Positions 5,069 through 17,770 of a stretch of DNA of 37,100 nt are shown piece by piece (position 1 is the stretch's first letter; every line of letters starts with the position of its first letter). The stretch is from Pseudanabaena sp. 'Roaring Creek' (GTDB lineage Bacteria > Cyanobacteriota > Cyanobacteriia > Pseudanabaenales > Pseudanabaenaceae), in assembly GCF_001402795.1 (NCBI RefSeq), contig NZ_LIRE01000662.1, positions 1 through 37,100 of the forward strand. The letters run 5' to 3'. The translations under genes and the position numbers were made by a program. Below the pieces are notes generated by a model that was not told the origin of the DNA, ran no database searches, and saw only the letters and a program-made list of their open reading frames with translations.

Positions 5069-5108
5069 TTAAGCGATCGCCTATTTTGCACTTTACAGCG
5101 CTTTGCGC

Positions 5109-5200
5109 TCAAACCTAAACTAAGGGAATTTTTAAAAGCCCTGCTTCGCAACGCTTTCAAAAATTCCCTTGTGGTTCGTTTGATCGATAATTGCTGTAAT
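5109..5200. repeat. decayed copy of the long palindrome at 17664-17770
   Basis: Arms 5122-5133 and 5159-5170 (AAGGGAATTTTT and its complement) flank an apex containing CTGCTTCGCAACGC. The right shoulder GTGGTTCGTTTGATCG then ATAATTGCTGTA is nearly identical to the right arm of the palindrome at 17664-17770. The left shoulder is lost, so this is a one-sided relic. It lies just after the gene ending at 5068. Confidence 0.7.
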
Positions 5201-6535: not shown

Positions 6536-6665
6536 AGAAAATTTTTGAAAAAGATTCCATATATACATATGTGATTGTTCTCTCTAATTTCGCTTGAGAC
6601 AGGGTTTAATGAATTGGAGGGTGCGTCCCAATTTCTCGATCGCTAATCGCAAAGACATTGACATT

Positions 6666-7457
6666 ATGCAAAAGGTTTCATTGACATCCATGCCGATCGC
6701 CAATAATGTAGCGATCGCTATGCAGCAAATTAGTTACCAAACTAAATTTCGCACACTTTTGACAGGTATTTCCGTAGCGATCGCACAGGGTAACAAAACC
6801 GCATTAATTGGGGCAACGGGATCGGGGAAAACCACATTTTTACGCTTGCTCAATCGTTTAATCGATCCATCGGTGGGGATGATTTTGTTAAACGGCAAAA
6901 ATATTCAAGAACTTCCCATTCAAACCCTGCGACGACTGGTTGTGCTTGTGCCGCAGGAGCCGAGCTTATTAGGGATGACGGTTCAGGAAGCGATCGCCTA
7001 TCCTTTGCAATTGCAAAATTTTACTCCGAGCGCAATTGAAGCGCGATCGCAAAAATGGATTGATAAACTGCAAATCGATCGCAAGTTGCTCAATCGCTCA
7101 GAGCTAGAGTTATCCCTCGGGCAAAGGCAATGGATCGCGATCGCCAGAGCTTTAATTATGGAGCCAGAGGTCATCTTGCTGGACGAGCCAACTTCTGCCT
7201 TAGATCGAGGTTTATCCCATTTGCTATTAGATACCTTAACCGAGCTAACTCAATTACCTCAACCTGTAACCGTAGTGATGATTAATCATCAACTTGATCT
7301 AGTGCAAACATGGTGCGATCGGCTTATTTGTCTGCATAAGGGAGAATTAGTGCAGGATGCTGAGGCGAGTCTAGTTAATTGGCAAGAGATTGATGATTTA
7401 TTAAGACGAGATACAAGTTCAGGTCAAGATGGTGAATCATCGGATGACTGGACTTAA
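6666..7457 (+). CDS. ABC transporter ATP-binding protein
   Basis: This is a compact nucleotide-binding subunit of about 263 residues. Visible motifs are Walker A GATGSGKTT, Q-loop VLVPQEPSLLG, an altered signature LSLGQRQWIAIARAL (LSLGQ in place of LSGGQ), Walker B VILLDEPTSALD and the switch histidine in INHQ. The Q-loop region (PSLLGMTVQEAIAYPLQ) recalls the FetA/STAR1-like group, in which the permease is a separate gene. No permease is adjacent, so the substrate is unknown. The ATG at 6666 is chosen by homology-like start of the domain; ATG at 6609 or TTG at 6594 would lengthen it. The last 12 codons (to 7457) are part of a 235-bp repeat copied at 11002-11236, and cassette 1 begins 197 bp after the stop. 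Confidence 0.85.
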   Translation: MQKVSLTSMPIANNVAIAMQQISYQTKFRTLLTGISVAIAQGNKTALIGATGSGKTTFLRLLNRLIDPSVGMILLNGKNIQELPIQTLRRLVVLVPQEPSLLGMTVQEAIAYPLQLQNFTPSAIEARSQKWIDKLQIDRKLLNRSELELSLGQRQWIAIARALIMEPEVILLDEPTSALDRGLSHLLLDTLTELTQLPQPVTVVMINHQLDLVQTWCDRLICLHKGELVQDAEASLVNWQEIDDLLRRDTSSGQDGESSDDWT

Positions 7458-7654
7458 TGCGTCAGGATCATTTAGTGGGGCTAACACGCCATTTTGGTAG
7501 TTATTCAGAAAGTTTCTTCATAACATAACGTATGGGGTATTTAGGCAGAAAGTTTCCGTATAACGTGACATATAGGGTGATTAGGCGGAAGTTTGACTTT
7601 CGGGCTAAATCGCCTATAGTCAGATTAGACAGAAAGTTTCTGTCTAATACATAG
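7420..7654 (+). repeat. 235-bp direct repeat, copy A (includes the 3' end of the ABC ATPase gene)
   Basis: It starts at CAGGTCAAGATGGTG in the ABC gene and ends CTAATACATAG. It is roughly 85 percent identical by eye to copy B at 11002-11236. Both encode a C-terminus GQD...DDWT with stop, and both share the same series of GCAGAAAGTTT / CATATAGGGTGATTAG blocks. Copy A ends exactly at the G that precedes the TT opening cassette 1. Confidence 0.88.
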
Positions 7655-7688
7655 TTATGTCGCAACAAAAACGAAGCAGCAATGATTT

Positions 7689-8588
7689 ATGAAAATCAAA
7701 AAAGTAACTACTATTTTTGGAATTAGTATCCTATCCATTGGAGTAGTTGCTTATCTTGGTATTTCTGCGATCGCAGGTGATAAACTTTCTACGGCAAAAA
7801 GGATATTTGACCCACAGAAAATCTCTGTTTTTAACTCTAAGCCTGAAGAAGTGAAGATAATGACATCTGATGGGAAAGAGATAGCAGGCTGGTACATTAA
7901 ATCTCAAAAATCCGATAAAGTCTTAATCTTAGTGCATGGCTTAAACTCTAGCCGCACTTTTGAGTTTGCAGGTAAGTTTTCTGAGTTTGGGGCAGAAATG
8001 AATCGTCAAGGCTTTTCTATTCTGATGATAGATTTGCGAGGACATGGACAAAGTTCAGATTCACGGCTCACCTTTGGCATCACAGAGCGTAATGATATTG
8101 TCGCTGCTGTAAACTGGCTCAAGCAAAAGGGTTTCAAACCTCAGAAAATCGGGGTCTTGGGAGTATCAATGGGTTCTGCCAGTGTCATCGGAGCAGCTGC
8201 CGATGATGCCGACATTGCCTCAATTGTCATAGATAGTTGCTACGCTGAGGTTTACCCGATTATGCAAAAACATTGGCAATCCGCTTCGGGCTTACCAGAG
8301 ATATTTTTGCCTTCTACGATGATGTTTGGTCACTTGTTCACTGGGTACGATCCCACATTGTCTAAGCCCGTGCAGGAAATCAGTAAGATTGCACCTCGTC
8401 CTGTTTTGATTATTCATAGCAAGATTGATCCCTACACTCCTGTTGAAAATGCCTACAAACTCAAAGAAGCTTATCCAAAAGCAGAATATTGGGAAACCAA
8501 CGCCAAAGAACATCCAGAGAGCTATAACACAGACCCGAAACTTTATGTAGAGAAAGTCTCAGATTTCTTTAATCGTAGCCTGAGGTAA
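7689..8588 (+). CDS. membrane-anchored alpha/beta hydrolase
   Basis: The 299-residue protein starts with a signal anchor (VTTIFGISILSIGVVAYLGI) and continues as a serine alpha/beta hydrolase of the FrsA/BAAT-like kind. The oxyanion strand is LVHGLNSS (residues 81-88) and the nucleophile elbow is GVSMG with Ser150. An acid lies in SKIDPYTP (Asp247) and a histidine in KEHPESY (His275). DLRGHGQS is also typical. The catalytic triad therefore appears complete. The substrate is unknown; such enzymes cleave esters, amides or lipids at the outer face or periplasm. It is the only gene of cassette 1, starting 34 bp after the cassette boundary. Its stop at 8588 lies 2 bp before the attC, a normal cassette layout. 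It holds the last HIP1 octamer (7769-7776) before a long gap. Confidence 0.85.
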   Translation: MKIKKVTTIFGISILSIGVVAYLGISAIAGDKLSTAKRIFDPQKISVFNSKPEEVKIMTSDGKEIAGWYIKSQKSDKVLILVHGLNSSRTFEFAGKFSEFGAEMNRQGFSILMIDLRGHGQSSDSRLTFGITERNDIVAAVNWLKQKGFKPQKIGVLGVSMGSASVIGAAADDADIASIVIDSCYAEVYPIMQKHWQSASGLPEIFLPSTMMFGHLFTGYDPTLSKPVQEISKIAPRPVLIIHSKIDPYTPVENAYKLKEAYPKAEYWETNAKEHPESYNTDPKLYVEKVSDFFNRSLR

Positions 8589-8590
8589 GA

Positions 8591-8680
8591 GCAACATAAC
8601 AAATCACTGCACCCGACTCTATGTTAGGCTATCCCTGGTATCCAAAGTCAATGAAGGCGGGTGAGTTCAAACGTTGTGCC
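8591..8680 (+). other. attC-like recombination site, cassette 1
   Basis: Left arm: ACATAAC (8594-8600), then CACTGCACCCGAC. Right arm: GGCGGGTGAG, then CGTTGTGC (8672-8679). The arms pair as CACCCG/CGGGTG with one extra G on the left. The presumed cut lies after G8673. Cassette 1 opens TTATGTCGC, which matches the complement of GCAACATAA in 8 of 9 positions. Confidence 0.85.
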
Positions 8681-8743
8681 GCTTGAGTTACTAGTAGGGC
8701 GGTTCATCAGCATTATCTGTAGGATGCGCTATCTTAGGAAATC

Positions 8744-9055
8744 ATGATTTCAAGTTTTGTGCTTATGAGTGATTGGCTGTTTAATGATCCGCCAAATGTA
8801 GCCGTTCTCACAACTCATCAGGTATTGAATGGCGAGACAATTTTGTATGTCAGTCATGATGAAGAAGATGGTGCTTGGCAATTCCATACAGGTGAGATAA
8901 TTGGTGAGTCTAATGCTAAAGTTGTGGCGCTTAAAAGAATTGTCGAACTCGATCACTCTGTAATGCAGTTAGCCGATTTACCATTAGGTTGGGTAGCGAC
9001 TAGATCAGAAGCGGGGACTATTTGGCAAAGACTCAAGTGCAACAGCCGGTTGTGA
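8744..9055 (+). CDS. hypothetical protein, first gene of cassette 2
   Basis: The 103-residue soluble protein is not one I can name. Key stretches are GETILYVSHDEEDGAWQFHT, then ALKRIVELDHSVMQLADLPL and GWVATR. These look like a small conserved domain of the immunity-protein or DUF2185-like style, but that resemblance is loose. A second ATG at 8765 (MSDWLFNDPP) could be the start. It is followed by DUF6883 and DUF4926 genes with gaps of 17 and 19 bp, so the three probably form one transcript inside one cassette. It begins 70 bp after the cassette boundary at 8674. Three-gene cassettes are uncommon; the set may act together. Confidence 0.7.
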   Translation: MISSFVLMSDWLFNDPPNVAVLTTHQVLNGETILYVSHDEEDGAWQFHTGEIIGESNAKVVALKRIVELDHSVMQLADLPLGWVATRSEAGTIWQRLKCNSRL

Positions 9056-9072
9056 CATAGTGCTGCTCCAAA

Positions 9073-9405
9073 ATGCTCATTCCAAATTCAGAGAATGCGA
9101 TTGTTGATATTCGTAAACTTCGTGACTACTGCCTTAATTCAAAACATGACGATGGCAAGCACAAAGCACGGCTTTTTTCGTCAATTCTTGGAATGACGGC
9201 TGATAATGCTGGAGAGTTACGTCAAATGCTGCTTGAGATCGTCAAAGTTCAAGAAGCCCAGTTGGGAAGACGAGATGAGTTTGGGCAACGCTACACTCTG
9301 GATTTCACAATCGAATGGCAAAATAGAAGTGCAACCCTTCGGAGTGGCTGGATCATTGAGCATGGTTCAGAAATTCCAAAATTAACGACCTGTTATCCTC
9401 TGTAA
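9073..9405 (+). CDS. DUF6883-family protein
   Basis: The 110-residue protein reads MLIPNSENAIVDIRKLRDYC, then 'DDGKHKARLFSSILGMTADN', 'RRDEFGQRYTLDFTIEWQNR' and RSGWIIEHGSEIPKLTTCYP. I recognise this as DUF6883, a small domain found alone or fused to polymorphic toxins, frequent in cyanobacteria, of unknown activity. The pattern GKHKARLF...RSGWII...P is conserved in members I recall. No signal peptide or membrane helix is present. It is the middle gene of cassette 2, next to a DUF4926 gene. I believe DUF6883 and DUF4926 are often neighbours, which suggests a two-component module such as toxin-antitoxin, but this is unproven. Confidence 0.75.
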   Translation: MLIPNSENAIVDIRKLRDYCLNSKHDDGKHKARLFSSILGMTADNAGELRQMLLEIVKVQEAQLGRRDEFGQRYTLDFTIEWQNRSATLRSGWIIEHGSEIPKLTTCYPL

Positions 9406-9424
9406 TCAGTAGAGGTAATCAAGC

Positions 9425-9673
9425 ATGATAAATAATGCAGTCAAGTTACTAGATGTTGTCGCCCTAATCGTTGACCTTCCTCAGTGCAATTTATGGCGTG
9501 GGCAGGTTGGAACAGTCGTTGAGACGCTTGCGGAGGGTGCTGCATTTGAAGTTGAATTCAGTGATCGCAATGGGCGTACCTACGAGTCTTTAGGGTTGCG
9601 TCCAGAGCAAATCATGGTTCTGCATTTTGAGCCAGTACCACCCGATACAAAAGCTGAAATGGTTACGGTATAA
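9425..9673 (+). CDS. DUF4926-family protein
   Basis: The 82-residue protein matches DUF4926, a small beta-rich domain. It has KLLDVVALIVDLPQCNLWRG, 'GQVGTVVETLAEGAAFEVEF' and a closing region RPEQIMVLHF. The GxVGTVVE...AFEVEF pattern looks like an SH3-like barrel. Function is unknown, but the domain is repeatedly found beside DUF6883 and in mobile contexts (recalled). The ATG is preceded by AGAGGTAATCAAGC, a good ribosome site. The stop TAA (9671-9673) abuts the attC site of cassette 2, which starts at 9674. Confidence 0.75.
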   Translation: MINNAVKLLDVVALIVDLPQCNLWRGQVGTVVETLAEGAAFEVEFSDRNGRTYESLGLRPEQIMVLHFEPVPPDTKAEMVTV

Positions 9674-9766
9674 GCGGCACAACAACCCCAATGCACCCGA
9701 CCGCCGAGAGGTTATCTGTTGAGCGTTCGAGGTTATCTGCGGCGGGTGATTGGGAACGTTAGCAAT
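9674..9766 (+). other. attC-like recombination site, cassette 2
   Basis: Left arm GCGGCACAAC, then CCCCAATGCACCCGACC. Right arm GGCGGGTGATTGGG, then AACGTTAGCA. CCCAAT-CACCCG pairs across, with one extra left G (CAATGCACC). The presumed cut follows G9758. The cassette opens TTGTGCCGCTT at 8674, an exact 11-base complement of AAGCGGCACAA at this left end. The inner loop holds two GAGGTTATCTG copies. Confidence 0.88.
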
Positions 9767-9820
9767 CATTCTGGCGCGGCCAGTCAGACGATATAAATAC
9801 AGATACCCTGAGGTAATAAT

Positions 9821-10973
9821 ATGATAAGTGGAAGTAACAAAGACCAGATAATTATAGTTGGTGCGGGCATTGCCGGCCTGAGTCTTGCCATTCAGCTCGC
9901 TGAGAAAAAAAATACCTTGCATAGTGCTTGAAGCCAGAGAAAGTTTTGGCGGAGTTACAAGCGGCGTAAGGATTTCCGCTAAAGGCGTTCGGGTTCTTGA
10001 GAAAATTGGCATTCACAATATTGGCGAAAACACAGAAAAGTTGGTGATGTACTTTGGCACAAAACACATAAAGTTTGACGTAAAAAATGAAAAAGATGCA
10101 AGTCCTGCAATTCTCGTAACCCGATTGGCTGTGTTTGAAAAGTTGCGTGAACGTATCAATGAGTTGGGAATAAATATCATCTACAAATATAAGTTGGACA
10201 ACGTCATTGAAAATGCTGATAACGTAGTTGCAGTTTCAAGTGACGGGAAGAAAATTCAAGGAAAATATCTAGTAGGTGCAGATGGTGTAGGCTCTAAAGT
10301 AAGAAGTTTGTTAAATGCGGGCGGTACTTCTGAAAAGCGATATGCAGGTTACTTGGGGCTTGGTTTCATTTATCCAAGCGATGAGAAAATAGAAATGTCT
10401 TTATTTAATATTCTTAATGGCAACATCGGCCTTGGTTCTATCGGAAAAATAAGCCCAGACGATACTTGCAACAATAATTTCTTGTGGGCACATATACACA
10501 TGAGTGAAGCGGAAGCAAAAGCCATAAGCGACAAAGAGGTGTTCGAGAGAATAGCCGAGCGAGCAAAAGGTTGGACGCCTCATCTGCGACAAGTTTTTCA
10601 AGAGATTAAAGCCAATCCCAAAACCATTTTGTATCATCAGCCTGTTTACAACGGCAATTTGCCAAGCAAATGGTTCAACGACAGACTGTTTTTGATAGGC
10701 GATGCGGCTCATCCTTATGGTCCTGGCGGGCAAGGTATCAGCTTAGCAATGTTAGATGCGGAAGCCTTGTGTAGTTTGTTTACGAATGAACTGACAGAAG
10801 AAAAGAAAATCAATTTTCAAATAACAAGGGCAGCTATTGCAAAAGAGAAAGGCGAAAGTTCGGAAGAAAGAAACAAACCAGAAAATCAAATTACTAGTAA
10901 TTTCGGATTATGGTGGAAAGGAGTATTTATGAAGGGTTTCCATTTGTTCAGTGGTGGAAAAATAGAATTGTAA
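9821..10973 (+). pseudogene. FAD-dependent monooxygenase, frameshifted at an A8 run
   Basis: The first frame begins at ATG 9821 after AGGTAATAAT and reads DQIIIVGAGIAGLSLAIQLA, the dinucleotide-binding GxGxxG of a PF01494 monooxygenase. It stops soon after an eight-A run (9905-9912). The other frame continues IPCIVLEARESFGGVTSGVR and later GADGVGSKVRS and RLFLIGDAAHPYGPGGQGIS, the second FAD motif. Removing one A would give a continuous protein of about 383 residues. The enzyme group (TetX, PHBH, zeaxanthin epoxidase-like) hydroxylates aromatics or other small molecules using NAD(P)H. It is the only gene of cassette 3. The frameshift may be real decay, polymerase slippage at the run, or an assembly error. 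Confidence 0.8.
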
Positions 10974-10988
10974 GTGAGCGGTAAAAAT

Positions 10989-11001
10989 CCGTTGCTAACA
11001 A
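10989..11001 (+). other. truncated attC left end, cassette 3
   Basis: TTGCTAAC here complements the first bases TTAGCAA of cassette 3 (9759-9765). This is the relation seen in cassette 2. The rest of the site is missing because copy B of the 235-bp repeat starts at 11002. Only about a dozen bases survive, so the call rests on position and complementarity. Confidence 0.5.
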
Positions 11002-11236
11002 CAGGTCAAGATGATGCATTAGAGGACGACTGGACTTAATGCGCCAAGCTTATTTAGTCGGGCTAACACGATATTTGGGTGATTATTCAGAAAGTTTCTT
11101 CATAACATAACGTATGGGGTATTTAGGCAGAAAGTTTTCGTATAATGTGACATATAGGGTGATTAGCCAGAAATTTGACTTTCAGCCTATATCCCCTATA
11201 GTCAGATTAGATAGAAATTTTCCGTCTAATACATAG
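11002..11236 (+). repeat. 235-bp direct repeat, copy B
   Basis: It matches copy A (7420-7654) from CAGGTCAAGATGATG to CTAATACATAG. It encodes an orphan ABC-protein tail GQDDALEDDWT with stop at 11037-11039. It carries the same downstream blocks, with a few changes such as AAAATTTT and CAGCCTATATCCCC. It joins the broken attC of cassette 3 to the presumed start of cassette 4. Confidence 0.88.
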
Positions 11237-11378
11237 CTAGGCGGCTTAATCTTCTGGTGGCGACAGGTGCTTGAAAGTTATCTGTATGAAGCAACGCTAT
11301 AGCTCTCTAAGGGTCTTGGCGATCACAAAATAAAGCAACATAATTAAAGTGCCGATATTGAAGCATTGTGGGTGAGTT

Positions 11379-12284
11379 GTGACAAGCCACGAAGATAGCC
11401 ATTTTGAGTCACAAACAACCTGTGACGCTCTGCTTAGCTTAATGCAAGAGCGAATTTTGGGCATTGACCGTAAAGAGGCAAAAAATACCTGTGCAATCTT
11501 TCATCGAACAGGCAATCGCTTTGTATTTCTTTACCATCGGAAAAATAGTCCAAATTTAAGAATTTACTTTCGAGCTGAACCAGATTTAGATTTTCAAGTT
11601 CCAAGTACGATCAATCTTCAAAAGCGAGCAAAGATCAATAGTACTTGGGAAAAGAACTTCCCTTTCTTTTTTGAGCTTGCACCATCTGATAATTTAGAGG
11701 AAGTTGCTGAGTTTCTCGTAAAAGAAGCTTATCCGCTTTCCCTAAAATCTACTTCAACAGTATCGGGATACGAACAGCCTGAACTTTTCGAGCAGCGTTC
11801 GTTAATTGAAGCTGAAGGATATTTTGATGCTGACAACATTGAAGATGCAAGACAACGAGTAATAACTTCGATTGTGCAGCGACAAGGACAAGCAGAATTT
11901 CGTCGTAAATTATTAGAGGTTTATAACTATCAGTGTCAAGTGACAAGATGTGATGCTGAACCAGCCCTTGAAGCAGCACATATCATTTCGTATAAAGGTG
12001 ATAGAACTAACCATGTAGCTAACGGTCTCTTACTAAGAGCAGATATACATACTCTCTTTGACTTGCACTTATTATCTATTCATCCTGAGACTTATAAAAT
12101 TGTGATTTCTTCCCAATTATCGGCTACGTCCTATGTAAAATACGAAGGTCGAACTATATCTTTGCCACAACAAAAAAACGTACGACCAGACTCGGTAGCT
12201 TTGACGAAGCATTATGAGCTATTTCGGCAAAATTCCACATCTAAAAGCCTTCAGCATCCTAACAATTCAGGTGCAGCGGATTGA
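11379..12284 (+). CDS. HNH endonuclease-domain protein
   Basis: This is a 301-residue protein. The N-terminal two-thirds is not recognised (MQERILGIDRKEAKNTCAIF, then a segment with FFFELAPSDNLEEVAEFLVK). The C-terminal third is an HNH nuclease domain of the PF13391 type: RRKLLEVYNYQCQVTRCDAE, 'PALEAAHIISYKGDRTNHVA', 'NGLLLRADIHTLFDLHLLSI'. The AAHI histidine, the N of NG and the H of DIHTLFD are the catalytic set. Stand-alone proteins of this type are often restriction-like or defence nucleases. The start is a GTG at 11379 with a weak site, so uncertain by a few codons. The gene lies in cassette 4, and its last codons overlap the left arm of the attC (12254-12344). No methyltransferase is nearby. 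Confidence 0.82.
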   Translation: MTSHEDSHFESQTTCDALLSLMQERILGIDRKEAKNTCAIFHRTGNRFVFLYHRKNSPNLRIYFRAEPDLDFQVPSTINLQKRAKINSTWEKNFPFFFELAPSDNLEEVAEFLVKEAYPLSLKSTSTVSGYEQPELFEQRSLIEAEGYFDADNIEDARQRVITSIVQRQGQAEFRRKLLEVYNYQCQVTRCDAEPALEAAHIISYKGDRTNHVANGLLLRADIHTLFDLHLLSIHPETYKIVISSQLSATSYVKYEGRTISLPQQKNVRPDSVALTKHYELFRQNSTSKSLQHPNNSGAAD

Positions 12285-12344
12285 CCGAAGCCGCTTGGAT
12301 TGGATGCAAAGATCTGGACAACCGCTGACCCGAACCGTTAGCCT
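12254..12344 (+). other. attC-like recombination site, cassette 4
   Basis: Left arm TCCTAACAATTCAGGTGCAG then CGGA; right arm CCGCTGACCC, GAACCGTTAGCC. The arms pair as TAAC..TTC.GGT.CAGCGG with an extra left G (GGTGCAG against GGTCAG). The presumed cut follows G12337. The HNH stop codon lies inside the left half. Confidence 0.85.
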
Positions 12345-12399
12345 ACTTAGATTCATGGGAAAGCTATTTAAGGGTTTGACAGATTTACCTATAAAGAAT

Positions 12400-13338
12400 A
12401 TGAAGACATTTCTGAATGTTATCGCGGGGTTTGCAGTAGTTTGCACTCATGCTGTTTTAGCTATTCCAGTTTGTGCATATCCTGTATCGCAATCTGTTTG
12501 CAGCAAGAGCGATCAGTATGCCGTGTTTGCAAAGAGGCACTTGTTTGGTGGAAACCCTGGTAAACCAGGAAGTGTTGCAGACAAGGTCGATCTACAAAGT
12601 GAACATGAACACCTTTTCTTTTGTAACAATGGCAATATAACCAACAACATTGGATACGGGACAAGAAGTGGTGCGCCTATTTCTGAAGGGTATCTGTTTA
12701 GCTATACCAGCAATCAAATTAATTCAGGTACGGAGGTTGAAGGTGGAAAAACCAAACCTTTACGCTTTGTTGTGGTTGATCAAGAAACATATGACTCCGA
12801 CATAATGAACGATGTATTAGGTGATTTGCCAAATATGCTGCCAGACAGGTGTAGGATATCAACAGATACTTATGTACTTGTCGGAAACAACTGTCAGAAT
12901 TTTGCTGACAAGCTTAGATCTGAATACTGGAAGCGTCTTAAACCAAAGATTACTGCGTTTTACTGTGAAGGGCAGAAGGATGTGGATGTTTGCAATCTCA
13001 ATTGGGAGCAATCAACCGCTTTAATTATTGAATATTCTGACAAGAGTAAAAAGTCCCTTAACTGGCAGATTAGTGGATATGTGATTGGTGCGCCAACCGA
13101 TCAGGGTAAGGTTTCATCTCCGAATGGGAAAAGCACTATAAATTCAAACTTAAAATGTATTTGTAGTGGTAACGATTGTCGTGATACAAGAAACTACACA
13201 ATGTCCGCATCAATTACTAATGAAAGAGGCTCGCAAGCATCAGCCAAACTCAAGCTTCAGTGTAGCGCGGGAGCAGGTCAAATCATTAGAGATATTTTAC
13301 CCAAAATCCCTATTCGTATTCCTGGGTTGCCATTCTAG
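12400..13338 (+). CDS. exported protein with a His/Cys motif, cassette 5
   Basis: The start chosen is ATG 12400, which opens a signal peptide (MKTFLNVIAGFAVVCTHAVL, cleavage near AIPVCA). An upstream ATG at 12355 in the same frame is possible. The mature part, about 285 residues, has QSEHEHLFFCNNGNITNNIG, then YVLVGNNCQNFADKLRSEYW. A histidine in an early strand and a cysteine in an NNCQNF helix suggest the permuted papain-like (LRAT/PPPDE/NlpC-like) layout. The activity is inferred only. Several further cysteines (CICSGNDC, LQCSAG) could form disulfides. The C-terminus is ILPKIPIRIPGLPF, like the FecR protein's. The stop codon TAG overlaps the end of a short inverted-repeat element. Confidence 0.65.
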   Translation: MKTFLNVIAGFAVVCTHAVLAIPVCAYPVSQSVCSKSDQYAVFAKRHLFGGNPGKPGSVADKVDLQSEHEHLFFCNNGNITNNIGYGTRSGAPISEGYLFSYTSNQINSGTEVEGGKTKPLRFVVVDQETYDSDIMNDVLGDLPNMLPDRCRISTDTYVLVGNNCQNFADKLRSEYWKRLKPKITAFYCEGQKDVDVCNLNWEQSTALIIEYSDKSKKSLNWQISGYVIGAPTDQGKVSSPNGKSTINSNLKCICSGNDCRDTRNYTMSASITNERGSQASAKLKLQCSAGAGQIIRDILPKIPIRIPGLPF

Positions 13339-13625
13339 TGCGATCGCCGATCTTGTAGGTTGGGCTGAGGTGACGAAATCCAACCTTGCTTTTATTCCTT
13401 ACCTTAGTTTGTTGGGTTTCACTTCGTTCAACCCAACCTACATTTTATTCCATACAAGGTGACAGACCCAAACATTGCCTTTATTTCTTCCCTTAATATT
13501 TCCTCGCTAATAAAATCTGAGTTCTCACTTCGTCAGAGAGAGCGTAGTAACTCGACAATGAGGTTATGACTTCTCATAGTTGGGTTGCGTTCCTTAACCC
13601 AACCTACAAGATCAGCGATCGCACT
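13337..13625. mobile_element. MITE-like element with 28-bp terminal inverted repeats
   Basis: Ends 13337-13364 and 13598-13625 are inverse copies (AGTGCGATCGCCGATCTTGT then AGGTTGGG) with one mismatch. The interior holds TTGGGTTTCACTTCGTTCAA then CCCAACC, and a TTGGGTTGCG...AACCCAAC hairpin, a repeat style common in cyanobacteria. It contains no gene. The left end supplies the AG of the stop codon of the gene ending at 13338. Confidence 0.8.
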
Positions 13626-13688
13626 TAATGCGGCAAAGCATAATGCTTCCTGCTAGAATGTCACAATACAGTTCAATTCAGGTGCAAT

Positions 13689-14060
13689 ATGTCCCTAATG
13701 AGCGCCCCACCCAAGTTTCAATCCGCCCTTCCCCCTTTACGTTGGGATGAAGCAGGAGGTATCCGTATAGGTTCGAGCCGAGTGACTCTAGATAGTCTAC
13801 TCGCTACATACCACAATGGTTGCACTCCTGAAGAAATCGCTATTCAATTTTCAGTTCTGAGGTTAGAAGACATATACAGTACGATTGCCTACTATCTAAA
13901 CCATCGTCAGGAAATCGACAATTATTTAGAGCAGCGCAATCAACAAGCCCAAAAACTCAGGCAACAACTTACTGAAAAGCACAACTTAGTCGATCTGAGG
14001 CATCGCTTGCTTACTCGTCAGTCACAAAAGGAATCGAGGCAAAATGCGCCTTCTATCTGA
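13689..14060 (+). CDS. DUF433-family protein, probable antitoxin
   Basis: The 123-residue protein has an N-terminal stretch GGIRIGSSRVTLDSLLATYH, then NGCTPEEIAIQFSVLRLEDI and a helix-turn-helix-like YSTIAYYLNHRQEIDNYLEQ. This is the DUF433 (VapB-like) DNA-binding fold, followed by a charged coiled C-tail. DUF433 proteins pair with DUF5615 PIN-like toxins as type II toxin-antitoxin modules. The next gene overlaps it by 17 bp and is such a toxin. The antitoxin likely binds its own promoter in the 63 bp between the MITE and the ATG. Confidence 0.82.
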   Translation: MSLMSAPPKFQSALPPLRWDEAGGIRIGSSRVTLDSLLATYHNGCTPEEIAIQFSVLRLEDIYSTIAYYLNHRQEIDNYLEQRNQQAQKLRQQLTEKHNLVDLRHRLLTRQSQKESRQNAPSI

Positions 14061-14394
14061 CGAAAATTTTAACGGGGCTATATTGCGTGGTCTGATGAGA
14101 CGTTTGCCTAAACTAGATTTAGTTCGTGTCCAAGACGTAGGGCTGATGCACACTGATGATCCAGTTATTTTGGAATGGGCTGCTAACGAGGAACGTATCT
14201 TGCTTACCCATGATGTTGCCACTATTACGATGTATGCATACGAGCGCATCAATCAAGGATTACCTATGGCTGGGGTTGTTGAAGTGATTGCGACAGCACC
14301 CATAGGTAAAATTATTGATGATTTAGAGCTATTTATTTGCTGTAGCGAACCCGAAGAATATGAAGGACAAGTTCTTTTTATCCCTTTCTCCTAA
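14044..14394 (+). CDS. DUF5615 PIN-like toxin
   Basis: The 116-residue protein begins MRLLSDENFNGAILRGLMRR, has 'VRVQDVGLMHTDDPVILEWA' and ILLTHDVATITMYAYERINQ, then a C-terminal GVVEVIATAPIGKIIDDLEL. The acidic residues DEN near the start, TDD and THD fit the Mut7-C/PIN-like RNase fold of DUF5615. Members are presumed RNases inhibited by the DUF433 partner just upstream. The overlap of 17 bp indicates translational coupling. Together with the antitoxin it could stabilise the cassette array. The stop is 6 bp before the next attC. Confidence 0.82.
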   Translation: MRLLSDENFNGAILRGLMRRLPKLDLVRVQDVGLMHTDDPVILEWAANEERILLTHDVATITMYAYERINQGLPMAGVVEVIATAPIGKIIDDLELFICCSEPEEYEGQVLFIPFS

Positions 14395-14400
14395 AGTCCA

Positions 14401-14490
14401 GAAGCCTAACACTGCGTTGGAGCCAACTTATCGAAAGCGATTTCTAAAAGCCAAAGCTTGACTATGGCGGCTCAACTAGACCGTTATGCC
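14401..14490 (+). other. attC-like recombination site, cassette 5
   Basis: Left GAAGCCTAACACTGCGTTGG then AGCC; right GGCGGCTCAACTAGACCGTT then ATGCC. The arms share TAAC, GTTG and AGCC with one extra left G (GTTGGAGCC against GTTGAGCC). The presumed cut follows G14483. The left end matches the complement of the cassette-5 opening TTAGCCTACT in 8 of 10 bases. Confidence 0.83.
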
Positions 14491-14578
14491 AATCCAAAGA
14501 GTCTGTTAAAAAAGTTGTGTGTACTCTCAGGCAAGATCGATAAATTCAATGTAAGATTTGGGTGTTAATTAGAATATT

Positions 14579-15253
14579 ATGAATAAACATCCTATCTTAT
14601 GGAAGTTTTGGCTGATATGGGTGATTGTTTCAGCAACCAGTGAATTTATCGGTGTTTCCTGTGGTTTGCTTGCTGTCGCGACCATTGCTTTCATATCAAC
14701 ACCTGGGTTGGGTAAAATGGTCAGTTCAGAAGGCTTGTTGATTAGCTCCTTGCTAGGTGGCATCATAACTGGGGCGATCATAGGAATCTTTCAAGTTTTA
14801 GTTCTAAGAAAGTACTTTTCTCATATTAAGTACTGGATTACTGGCAGCATCGCTTACAGTGCGGTCGCTATGTCAATCATCTGGCAAATGAAACCTTGGG
14901 AGGGTGCCTCAAATGTTATCTGGTTGAAAAGCCTCTCAATCGGTGTCATCGTGGGAGCTATTGTTGGTTTTGTTCAATGGCAAGCTCTATCTCCGCACTT
15001 TACGCAGGCATCTCGACGGAAACCGGTCTTATGGTTTTTGATTAGTCCAATAAGCATGATGTGTAGTTTCCCCTTACTATTCTTTGGGGATGCTGACTTT
15101 GTATTCAATTTATTTAGTCCGTTCTTTATACTAGAACCAAGAATTTTTATATATTTGGGTGGGTTTATCCTCCATGCTGCCATCACTGGACTATGTTTAG
15201 TCTGGTTATTACAGCAACGCAGTGCGATCGCCCCTCGCCCTAATCTGGGGTGA
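14579..15253 (+). CDS. polytopic membrane protein, cassette 6
   Basis: The 224-residue protein has about six transmembrane helices, in two similar halves. Each half holds a glycine-rich helix followed by a Q/W signature: GAIIGIFQVLVLRKYFSHIK then YWITGS, and GAIVGFVQWQALSPHFTQAS then RRKPVLWFLIS. This GxxxGxxQxxxLxxx(21)W repeat is seen in many cyanobacterial membrane proteins of unknown role, probably small-molecule or sensor proteins; the function is not known. It begins 95 bp after the cassette boundary and ends 130 bp before the degenerate attC. The C-terminal tail (SAIAPRPNLG) contains a HIP1 octamer. Confidence 0.7.
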   Translation: MNKHPILWKFWLIWVIVSATSEFIGVSCGLLAVATIAFISTPGLGKMVSSEGLLISSLLGGIITGAIIGIFQVLVLRKYFSHIKYWITGSIAYSAVAMSIIWQMKPWEGASNVIWLKSLSIGVIVGAIVGFVQWQALSPHFTQASRRKPVLWFLISPISMMCSFPLLFFGDADFVFNLFSPFFILEPRIFIYLGGFILHAAITGLCLVWLLQQRSAIAPRPNLG

Positions 15254-15381
15254 GGTAAGGAAACTCTCAGCACTCTTCTCCTACGTGGTACTGCGAAATG
15301 AGATCTCAGGGAAGGCTCCTACATTGAAGCAATCGCCTTGGCACATCAATGATGAAAAATCAGAAAGACGATGGCGATCGC

Positions 15382-15475
15382 CAAGTATAAAAATCCCAAT
15401 TCACACCGACTGCTAAGAGATTACGACTAGAGTTCGATGTTATTTGCAGCGGGCGATCGCGAACGTTATACCGAA
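15382..15475 (+). other. degenerate attC-like site, cassette 6
   Basis: Left arm GTATAAAAATCCCAATTCAC then ACCGACTGC; right arm GCAGCGGGCGATCGCGAACG then TTATACC. The inner loop AGAGATTACGACTAGAGTTC resembles the loop of the site at 9674-9766. The left core has lost the AAC (TATAAA), so it may be inactive. The presumed cut follows G15465. Confidence 0.6.
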
Positions 15476-15601
15476 ACCCACTAAGTTTGTTAATGTTGTC
15501 TGCTTCCAACCGATTTAAGGCAAATAACAATGGTCGGCTGCTATATTGAGTTCCGAGAGGTTATCGGCGATTCATTTCTGGATGCTTCCCGCCACAAAAA
15601 T

Positions 15602-16045
15602 TCAGAAATGGTTGGCTACGTTGATAAGTTCCGACATTTCTACAATGCGATCGGCGACATCCAAAATCCGATTATCGTGAGTGACCAGCAAAATCGTACA
15701 TCCCTGCTCCTTGGCTAGGTTTTGCATCAAGTTCACCACATCGCGCCCAGATTTACTATCCAACGCCGCAGTTGGTTCATCCGCTAACACGATCTTGGGA
15801 CGGCTCACGAGCGCACGGGCGATCGCTACTCTTTGCTTTTGTCCACCTGACAGATCGTCAGGGTAATAATCTAAGCGATTGCCAAGCCCCACATGATCGA
15901 GCATGGCAGCCGCGCGATCGCGCATTTCTTGCAGCGAAAGATGATTATGCAATTCCAGTCCCATCTTCACGTTTTGCAAAGCCGTTAAACTATGGTGCAG
16001 GTTATGAGCTTGGAAAATATAGCCATTCTGACGACGCGCGATGGT
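15602..16045 (-). pseudogene. 5'-truncated DevA-like ABC ATPase relic
   Basis: The readable part resembles the DevA/MacB family of exporter ATPases: RRQNGYIFQAHNLHHSLTAL, 'LSGGQKQRVAIARALVSRPK', VLADEPTAALDSKSGRDVV and LLVTHDNRILDVADRIVEM. The Walker A and everything before it are missing, with a stop just upstream of the fragment (16046-16048). The C-terminus also diverges after IVEM (SELINVANHF). DevA works with DevB and DevC, which are absent. It is therefore a dead fragment on the minus strand, beside the downstream edge of the cassette array. Confidence 0.8.
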
Positions 16046-16177
16046 TTATCAAATCTATAGTTGGATTAGCGTCTAGCTGCCTCATCAATAGCTGTCATCT
16101 GGTAAACGACAGCATATTTAACCCTAGAGTTGATCGTTGTCGTCCCGCCAATTGCCGTGTCATTTAATACAATCTGA

Positions 16178-17663: not shown

Positions 17664-17770
17664 TACAGAGCAATTACCGATCAAACGAACCACAAGAAAA
17701 ATTCTGAAAGCGTTGCTTCGCAACGCTTTCAGAATTTTTCTTGTGGTTCGTTTGATCGGTAATTGCTGTA
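17664..17770. repeat. 107-bp almost perfect palindrome
   Basis: The whole block folds into one stem of roughly 50 bp with a TTC triloop at 17717-17719. Its only clear asymmetry is near the outer ends (GAGCAATTACC against GGTAATTGCTG). The same right shoulder occurs in the decayed copy at 5109-5200. It sits 224 bp upstream of ccmO. Confidence 0.85.

Follow-up and report, generated by a model that had tools for sequence, protein, structure and literature searches.

Two divergent copies of a probable integron attI site, each with a host gene tail, bracket three gene cassettes in a Pseudanabaena genome

Results

Layout of the locus

We analysed a stretch of 37,100 nucleotides from Pseudanabaena sp. 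'Roaring Creek' (contig NZ_LIRE01000662.1, positions 1 to 37,100 of the forward strand; hereafter the window), in which a direct repeat brackets integron gene cassettes downstream of a host gene; all parts of the locus described here lie on the + strand. The host gene encodes an ABC-transporter ATPase (6594..7457; PF00005, E 3e-29), a close orthologue is present in 24 of 25 congeners, and the gene is conserved at this position in the genus. The two copies of the repeat, A (7420-7654) and B (11002-11236), share a unit of 235 bp. A repeat search of the window paired 7420-7657 with 11002-11239 (88% identical, spacing 3582 bp) and self-BLAST aligned 235 bp at 88.1% identity (E 1.6e-83), a similarity far beyond chance; both confirm the repeat around cassettes 1-3 that an earlier sequence-only reading had reported. 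In line with that reading, copy A opens with the last 12 codons and the stop of the ATPase gene (7420..7457) and copy B with an orphan tail, GQDDALEDDWT plus stop (11002..11039), and each copy ends at a G immediately before a cassette. The last base of copy A is G7654, after which cassette 1 begins TTATGTCGC, and that of copy B is G11236, after which cassette 4 begins CTAGGCGGC. The identity of the two copies past this crossover G (TTA in one, CTA in the other) belongs to the cassettes and lies outside the shared unit. Behind the gene tails the copies consist of attI-A (7472..7654, about 183 bp to the crossover) and attI-B (11054..11236), a mosaic attI in which CT instead of TT follows the crossover.

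The repeated sequence as an integron attI

To identify the noncoding part, 26 genomes of the genus were searched with positions 7541-7657 as query, and related sequence was found in 24. The best outside matches, both 97% identical, are attI sites beside intact integron integrase (intI) genes in G007 (attI 3533689-3533805, intI 3533942-3534883) and G023 (attI 11986-12102, intI 10908-11849); these two intI genes score 462-476 bits against TIGR02249, and the third match, in G006 (94%), also adjoins an intact integron integrase gene. Across the loci compared, we collected 44 copies of the attI core. Ten of them are accompanied by a full-length or near-full-length intI and seven by fragments, none being present in the examined flank of the rest. 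The distance from crossover to intI start is 248-250 bp at nearly all of the ten loci and 210 bp in G013, and the intI of G008 is interrupted. The crossover G is invariant in all 44 copies and is followed by TT in 43, attI-B being the only one with G|CT; nearly all copies end ...TACATAG, and the sequence downstream varies. The empty site was reconstructed by combining the left flank with the right flank, which in P. biceps PCC 7429 (G001) and Phormidium tenue FACHB-1050 (G018) is G|TTAGACCGAAGC, the R half coming from these relatives. It reads GTCTAA-TACATA-G|TTAGAC, with inverted L and R boxes around the crossover. Two such inverted boxes around the crossover are the known layout of attI1. 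Since the same sequence adjoins true intI genes in congeners, we regard the repeated sequence, from these comparisons, as a real integron attI and not merely an attI-like one.

With regard to the integrase, no candidate in the genome of 'Roaring Creek' itself exceeded the family cut-off (best 35 bits against 265). This search returned distant tyrosine recombinases only, and the two loci that were read hold a XerC-like open reading frame (ORF) and a short integrase ORF. An intI adjoins the sequence at ten congeneric loci, but neither at this locus nor elsewhere in this genome. Several attI loci are found per Pseudanabaena genome. Most of them lack intI, and some retain fragments of it at the original distance; the genus thus seems to preserve a history in which integrase was lost repeatedly. 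Positions -6 to -114 of attI (e.g. 7541-7648 of the window) constitute an extended, imperfect inverted repeat (70-80% complementary), and attI-A contains the perfect 23-bp palindrome TTAGACAGAAAGTTTCTGTCTAA.

Each attI also carries a promoter-like pair, TTGACT-16-TATAGT, at 7593..7620 in attI-A (a candidate cassette promoter) and at 11175..11202 in attI-B, both recognised by consensus match only. Because of these pairs, attI-B may supply cassettes 4-6 with a promoter of their own.

Cassettes and attC sites

In an integron, the opening bases of each cassette complement the R'' box of the attC site that belongs to it. Cassette 1 (7655..8673) encodes an alpha/beta hydrolase, and its R'' box ACATAAC at 8594 complements its own start over 7 nt. 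Cassette 2 (8674..9758) contains Imm33-like (below cut-off), DUF6883 and DUF4926 ORFs, and its R'' at 9672 matches its own start over 12 nt. In cassette 3 (9759..11001), which carries a frameshifted FAD-binding monooxygenase gene, the complementarity extends over 8 nt. For each of these three cassettes the start finds a better complement at the end of the same cassette than at the end of either other one, and cassettes 1-3 are thereby shown to be genuine units. The R'' box of cassette 3, TTGCTAAC (10992-10999), is genuine because of this 8-nt complement, and the attC ends 2-3 nt past it; the remainder of the site is missing, copy B begins at 11002, and a folding check found no attC-like fold after the R''. 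No transposase gene turned up between the two copies. The frameshift in the monooxygenase gene (window 9821-9920) coincides with eight consecutive A, and the N-terminus, MISGSNKDQIIIVGAGIAGLSLAIQLAEKK, is read in another frame.

Beyond copy B, cassette 4 (11237..12337) encodes an HNH_2 nuclease and has an attC (12256-12344) with the best-folding stem (z -3.5), the best stems overall being those of cassettes 4 and 2. Cassette 5 (12338..14483, attC ~14402-14490) is composite, with an ORF of unknown function, a repeat element and a DUF433/DUF5615 pair, and cassette 6 (14484..15465, attC ~15384-15472) holds a membrane-protein ORF. The limits of these last two are less sure because the start-to-R'' test failed for both, and the attC evidence for them is weak. 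Copies of the attC of cassettes 1, 2 and 5 occur throughout the family, and attC copies are present in most relatives. A truncated cassette start then leads back into host sequence, a lolD-like ATPase remnant (15466..15635). With at least two attC sites and no intI nearby, the locus is a cluster of attC sites lacking integron integrases (CALIN) that has kept its attI and has probably lost the integrase gene.

Divergence between the two copies

The differences between copies A and B are unevenly spread, with a single exact run of 55 bp starting at 7501. Elsewhere in the genome, the sole further matches are weaker copies of the noncoding part only, on contig C288. Sequence comparison shows copy B to be a mosaic of two attI types: its last 74 bp are 96% like the attI of G013, G014 and G022 and 86.5% like copy A, and the last 74 bp of A are 97% like those of G018 and G023. 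In the gene tail of 51 bp, A and B differ at 10 positions, while P. biceps (G001) differs from A at 6 and from B at 5, and G018 from A at 5 and from B at 6. After a plain tandem duplication the copies would be nearest each other; instead, the tail and the right half are nearer to other species, the middle 55 bp excepted. Because the tail and right half diverge, yet the 55-bp run in the middle and the gene-tail/attI junction are common to both, copy B is best read as a long-separated, divergent allele of the junction in A, probably with some recombination in the middle. These comparisons disfavour B as a recent copy of A, leaving an origin in a different strain, which we favour, or an old duplication with conversion.

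The locus in relatives

In related species, attI likewise lies directly behind the ABC ATPase gene and is followed by different cassettes. P. biceps PCC 7429 and Phormidium tenue FACHB-1050 have the ABC gene and a single attI with a shorter left part, and in G023 the lolD-like gene directly follows the ABC gene, with no attI at this site. None of the 25 congeners has two attI here, with or without cassettes, so that the relative which would have spoken for a simple duplication older than the cassettes was not found. The right flank (lolD-like region) is ~90% identical between all pairs and is uninformative on the direction of transfer.

A second double-attI locus

Of the 44 attI loci checked for flank duplications, one further case, next to a cinA-like gene in G020 (contig C155), showed the same arrangement: an attI with host flank, two cassettes, and a divergent attI with the same host flank. 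The other hits were short host-gene-tail repeats around whole integrons or dispersed repeats, none of them attI plus flank. The two copies in G020 align over 448 bp at 81%. The flank is host DNA, as it is present together with the upstream cinA-like gene in G011, G015, G019 and G013. Its two copies are 87.8% alike but 90.7-93.5% like G011, G015 and G019. The second copy starts 3 bases after the R'' of the preceding cassette (GGGATATAAC), and the second attI lacks three bases next to the crossover. Four traits are common to both double arrays, namely the host flank, the bracketing of several cassettes, a divergence greater than that to other species, and the join at R''. Under uniform placement, the probability that both joins fall within 5 nt of R'' is ~3e-5.

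Discussion

Probable fusion of two arrays

Taken together, copies A and B are probably two attI of a cyanobacterial chromosomal integron, whose arrays, occupying the same site in different lineages, became fused head to tail. Since the cinA locus of G020 has the same layout, the process looks recurrent, and it looks like a host-flank-bearing variant of delta-attI-type cassettes (see below) rather than plain tandem duplication. Of the three origins proposed on first inspection, two are thus upheld in combination: an attI-like target duplicated with its flank, which can now be called a true attI from its place beside intI genes in congeners, and a fusion of two related insertions from different strains, which fits the tail comparison (10 of 51 positions between A and B, 5-6 to two species) and the second locus. 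The third, integration of a circle by homology, may have been a sub-step.

The two arrays, present at the same chromosomal site in different lineages, would have been fused by recombination between the R'' end of the cassette 3 attC and DNA ~235 bp upstream of the second crossover, much as has been suggested for delta-attI-type cassettes. Integrase acting at G|TT, or else homologous recombination in the shared stretch, would then have brought the fused unit to attI-A, and the integrase would subsequently have been lost. The double-attI state would persist, as no integrase is left and the attI-B crossover is damaged (G|CT, not G|TT). Because the second attI of G020 likewise lacks three bases by its crossover, both double arrays may be frozen by such damage, although these are two cases only. 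For the making of the left junction we infer integrase action, breakage of an attC hairpin or illegitimate recombination; copy B is joined to cassette 3 2-3 bases past R'', and the exact cut is not resolvable to the base. It is conceivable, though we hold it tentatively, that integron integrase can act both on the R'' end of an attC and on host DNA lying upstream of attI, which would let attI and flanking chromosome travel within a multi-cassette unit. If true, same-site arrays of different strains would recurrently come to be stacked head to tail by this route, every array bringing an attI and a promoter of its own.

Several observations speak against a fusion of this kind. The gene-tail/attI junction, the exact 55-bp stretch and some private variants are common to A and B, which therefore in part resemble each other more than they resemble other species, as would fit an old duplication with later conversion. 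The gene tail compared is only 51 bp long and shows no clear core site, and the join lies a few bases away from where integrase would be expected to cut in R''. Furthermore, G020 appears to be a metagenome-assembled genome (MAG) and both genomes are drafts, so that chimeric assembly is conceivable.

Alternative explanations

The common junction and the 55-bp run also speak for a plain duplication in cis, in which attI and cassettes 1-3 would have been doubled by an illegitimate join between the cassette 3 attC and the gene tail, the integrase would have removed the second cassette set, and the copies would have drifted. This would produce the left junction in a single event, but we consider it rather unlikely, given that the tails of A and B diverge more from each other than either does from two other species, as in G020, and that the end of B is so much closer to the attI of other species than to A. 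More weight attaches to homology-facilitated illegitimate recombination after DNA uptake, a possible though doubtful route in which attI-B, cassettes 4-6 and the right flank would have entered by homology at the right and a non-homologous join to cassette 3. Being an array fusion without integrase, it is a version of the explanation that we favour, and it accounts for the divergent allele, the nearly homology-free left junction (1-2 bp) and the absent integrase; it leaves unexplained, however, why both known junctions fall 2-3 nt past R'', and the right flank gives no clear foreign signal.

An assembler may also have joined the arrays of two strains, or a chromosome and an excised circle. The draft consists of 770 contigs, an exact run of 55 bp could confuse a short-read graph, and the second case appears to be in a MAG. 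Nevertheless, an overlap of 1-2 bp at the junction of cassette 3 and copy B is unexpected from k-mer assembly, the copies are 12% different and the same type of junction occurs in two assemblies, which makes such an artefact very improbable. The idea that A and B are ordinary host DNA serving as non-classical insertion targets, like attG, draws on the lack of intI in this genome and on insertion at G|TT beside host genes, which resembles attG use; it is hardly credible in view of the ten loci at which this sequence is the intI-adjacent site and the varied DNA that follows the G in 44 copies.

Relation to known systems

The fused arrays suggested here resemble delta-attI-type cassettes of class 1 and 2 integrons, in which attC is replaced from R'' by part of attI, as in attC(aadA1)-aadB-delta-attI2-238 (PMC12901181). 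One such cassette carries 244 bp of attI2, and for the short form a crossover between the attI L box and R'' has been proposed, the formation of delta-attI sites being listed as unknown (PMC12901181). In the same way, the cassette 3 attC is replaced from R'' (10992-10999) on by a long attI piece that ends at the crossover G (copy B, 11002-11236). Unlike those cassettes, the piece carries a host gene tail, follows a three-cassette unit and is 12% diverged from the resident attI; moreover, it lies in an integrase-less cyanobacterial genome, and the layout occurs at two loci of the genus. A plain member would match a known attI exactly and contain no host gene sequence; because copy B is 88% identical to attI-A and includes such sequence, we would file the locus as a variant that works like the delta-attI type. 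As a side observation, an ankyrin-repeat gene on contig C288 of G000 (L048; 4622-5546, minus strand) and on G001:C265 has a full attI on one side and a 30-bp mini-attI (TTAGATAGAAAATTTCTGTCTAATTCATAG) on the other, lacks a recognisable attC, and looks like a short delta-attI-type cassette common to two species.

The locus agrees with a CALIN in having several attC sites and cassettes without intI, but a recognisable attI, in fact two, has been kept. Xanthomonas has a sedentary chromosomal integron with a decaying intI (PMC12444791). There, as here, arrays lie at conserved host sites and intI is lost or truncated in many strains, whereas the Pseudanabaena attI is spread over many loci of the genus, frequently with no intI beside it, and can be present twice. 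A duplicated flank bracketing acquired genes likewise recalls the complex class 1 integrons, although here it is the attI end that is duplicated, with no transposase gene seen between the copies. In complex class 1 integrons it is the 3'-conserved segment that is duplicated, and ISCR1 and the 3' end are involved. Our literature searches yielded neither an account of Pseudanabaena integrons nor one of tandem attI in chromosomal integrons.

Arrays with two attI are expected to collapse where integrase is present, and natural ones are rare for this reason, attI1-aadB-attI1 having been excised at 100% (PMC12901181). Two such arrays in one genus, with host flank and a join just after R'', therefore offer material to test how delta-attI sites form. 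They also suggest that a single hotspot can accumulate the cassette sets of different strains instead of exchanging one set for another, and the genus-wide attI copies with and without intI would constitute a record of integrase loss.

Neighbouring sequence

The lolD-like ABC ATPase remnant extends over 15602-16173 of the window, and ~4 kb found between the lolD-like gene and a diguanylate cyclase gene in P. biceps PCC 7429 is missing here. A 48-bp inverted repeat at 17669-17767 is perfect, encloses a 3-bp loop and has a degenerate relative at 5093-5199; it resembles a miniature inverted-repeat transposable element. Elsewhere in the genus, direct repeats of a host gene tail stand on either side of whole integrons (G012:C60, around the attI at 170883; G004:C11; G005:C1; G018:C2; G020:C109). 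The repeats measure 152 bp in G012 and consist of a common 50-60-bp tail in the other four, as if these integrons had been inserted at gene ends.

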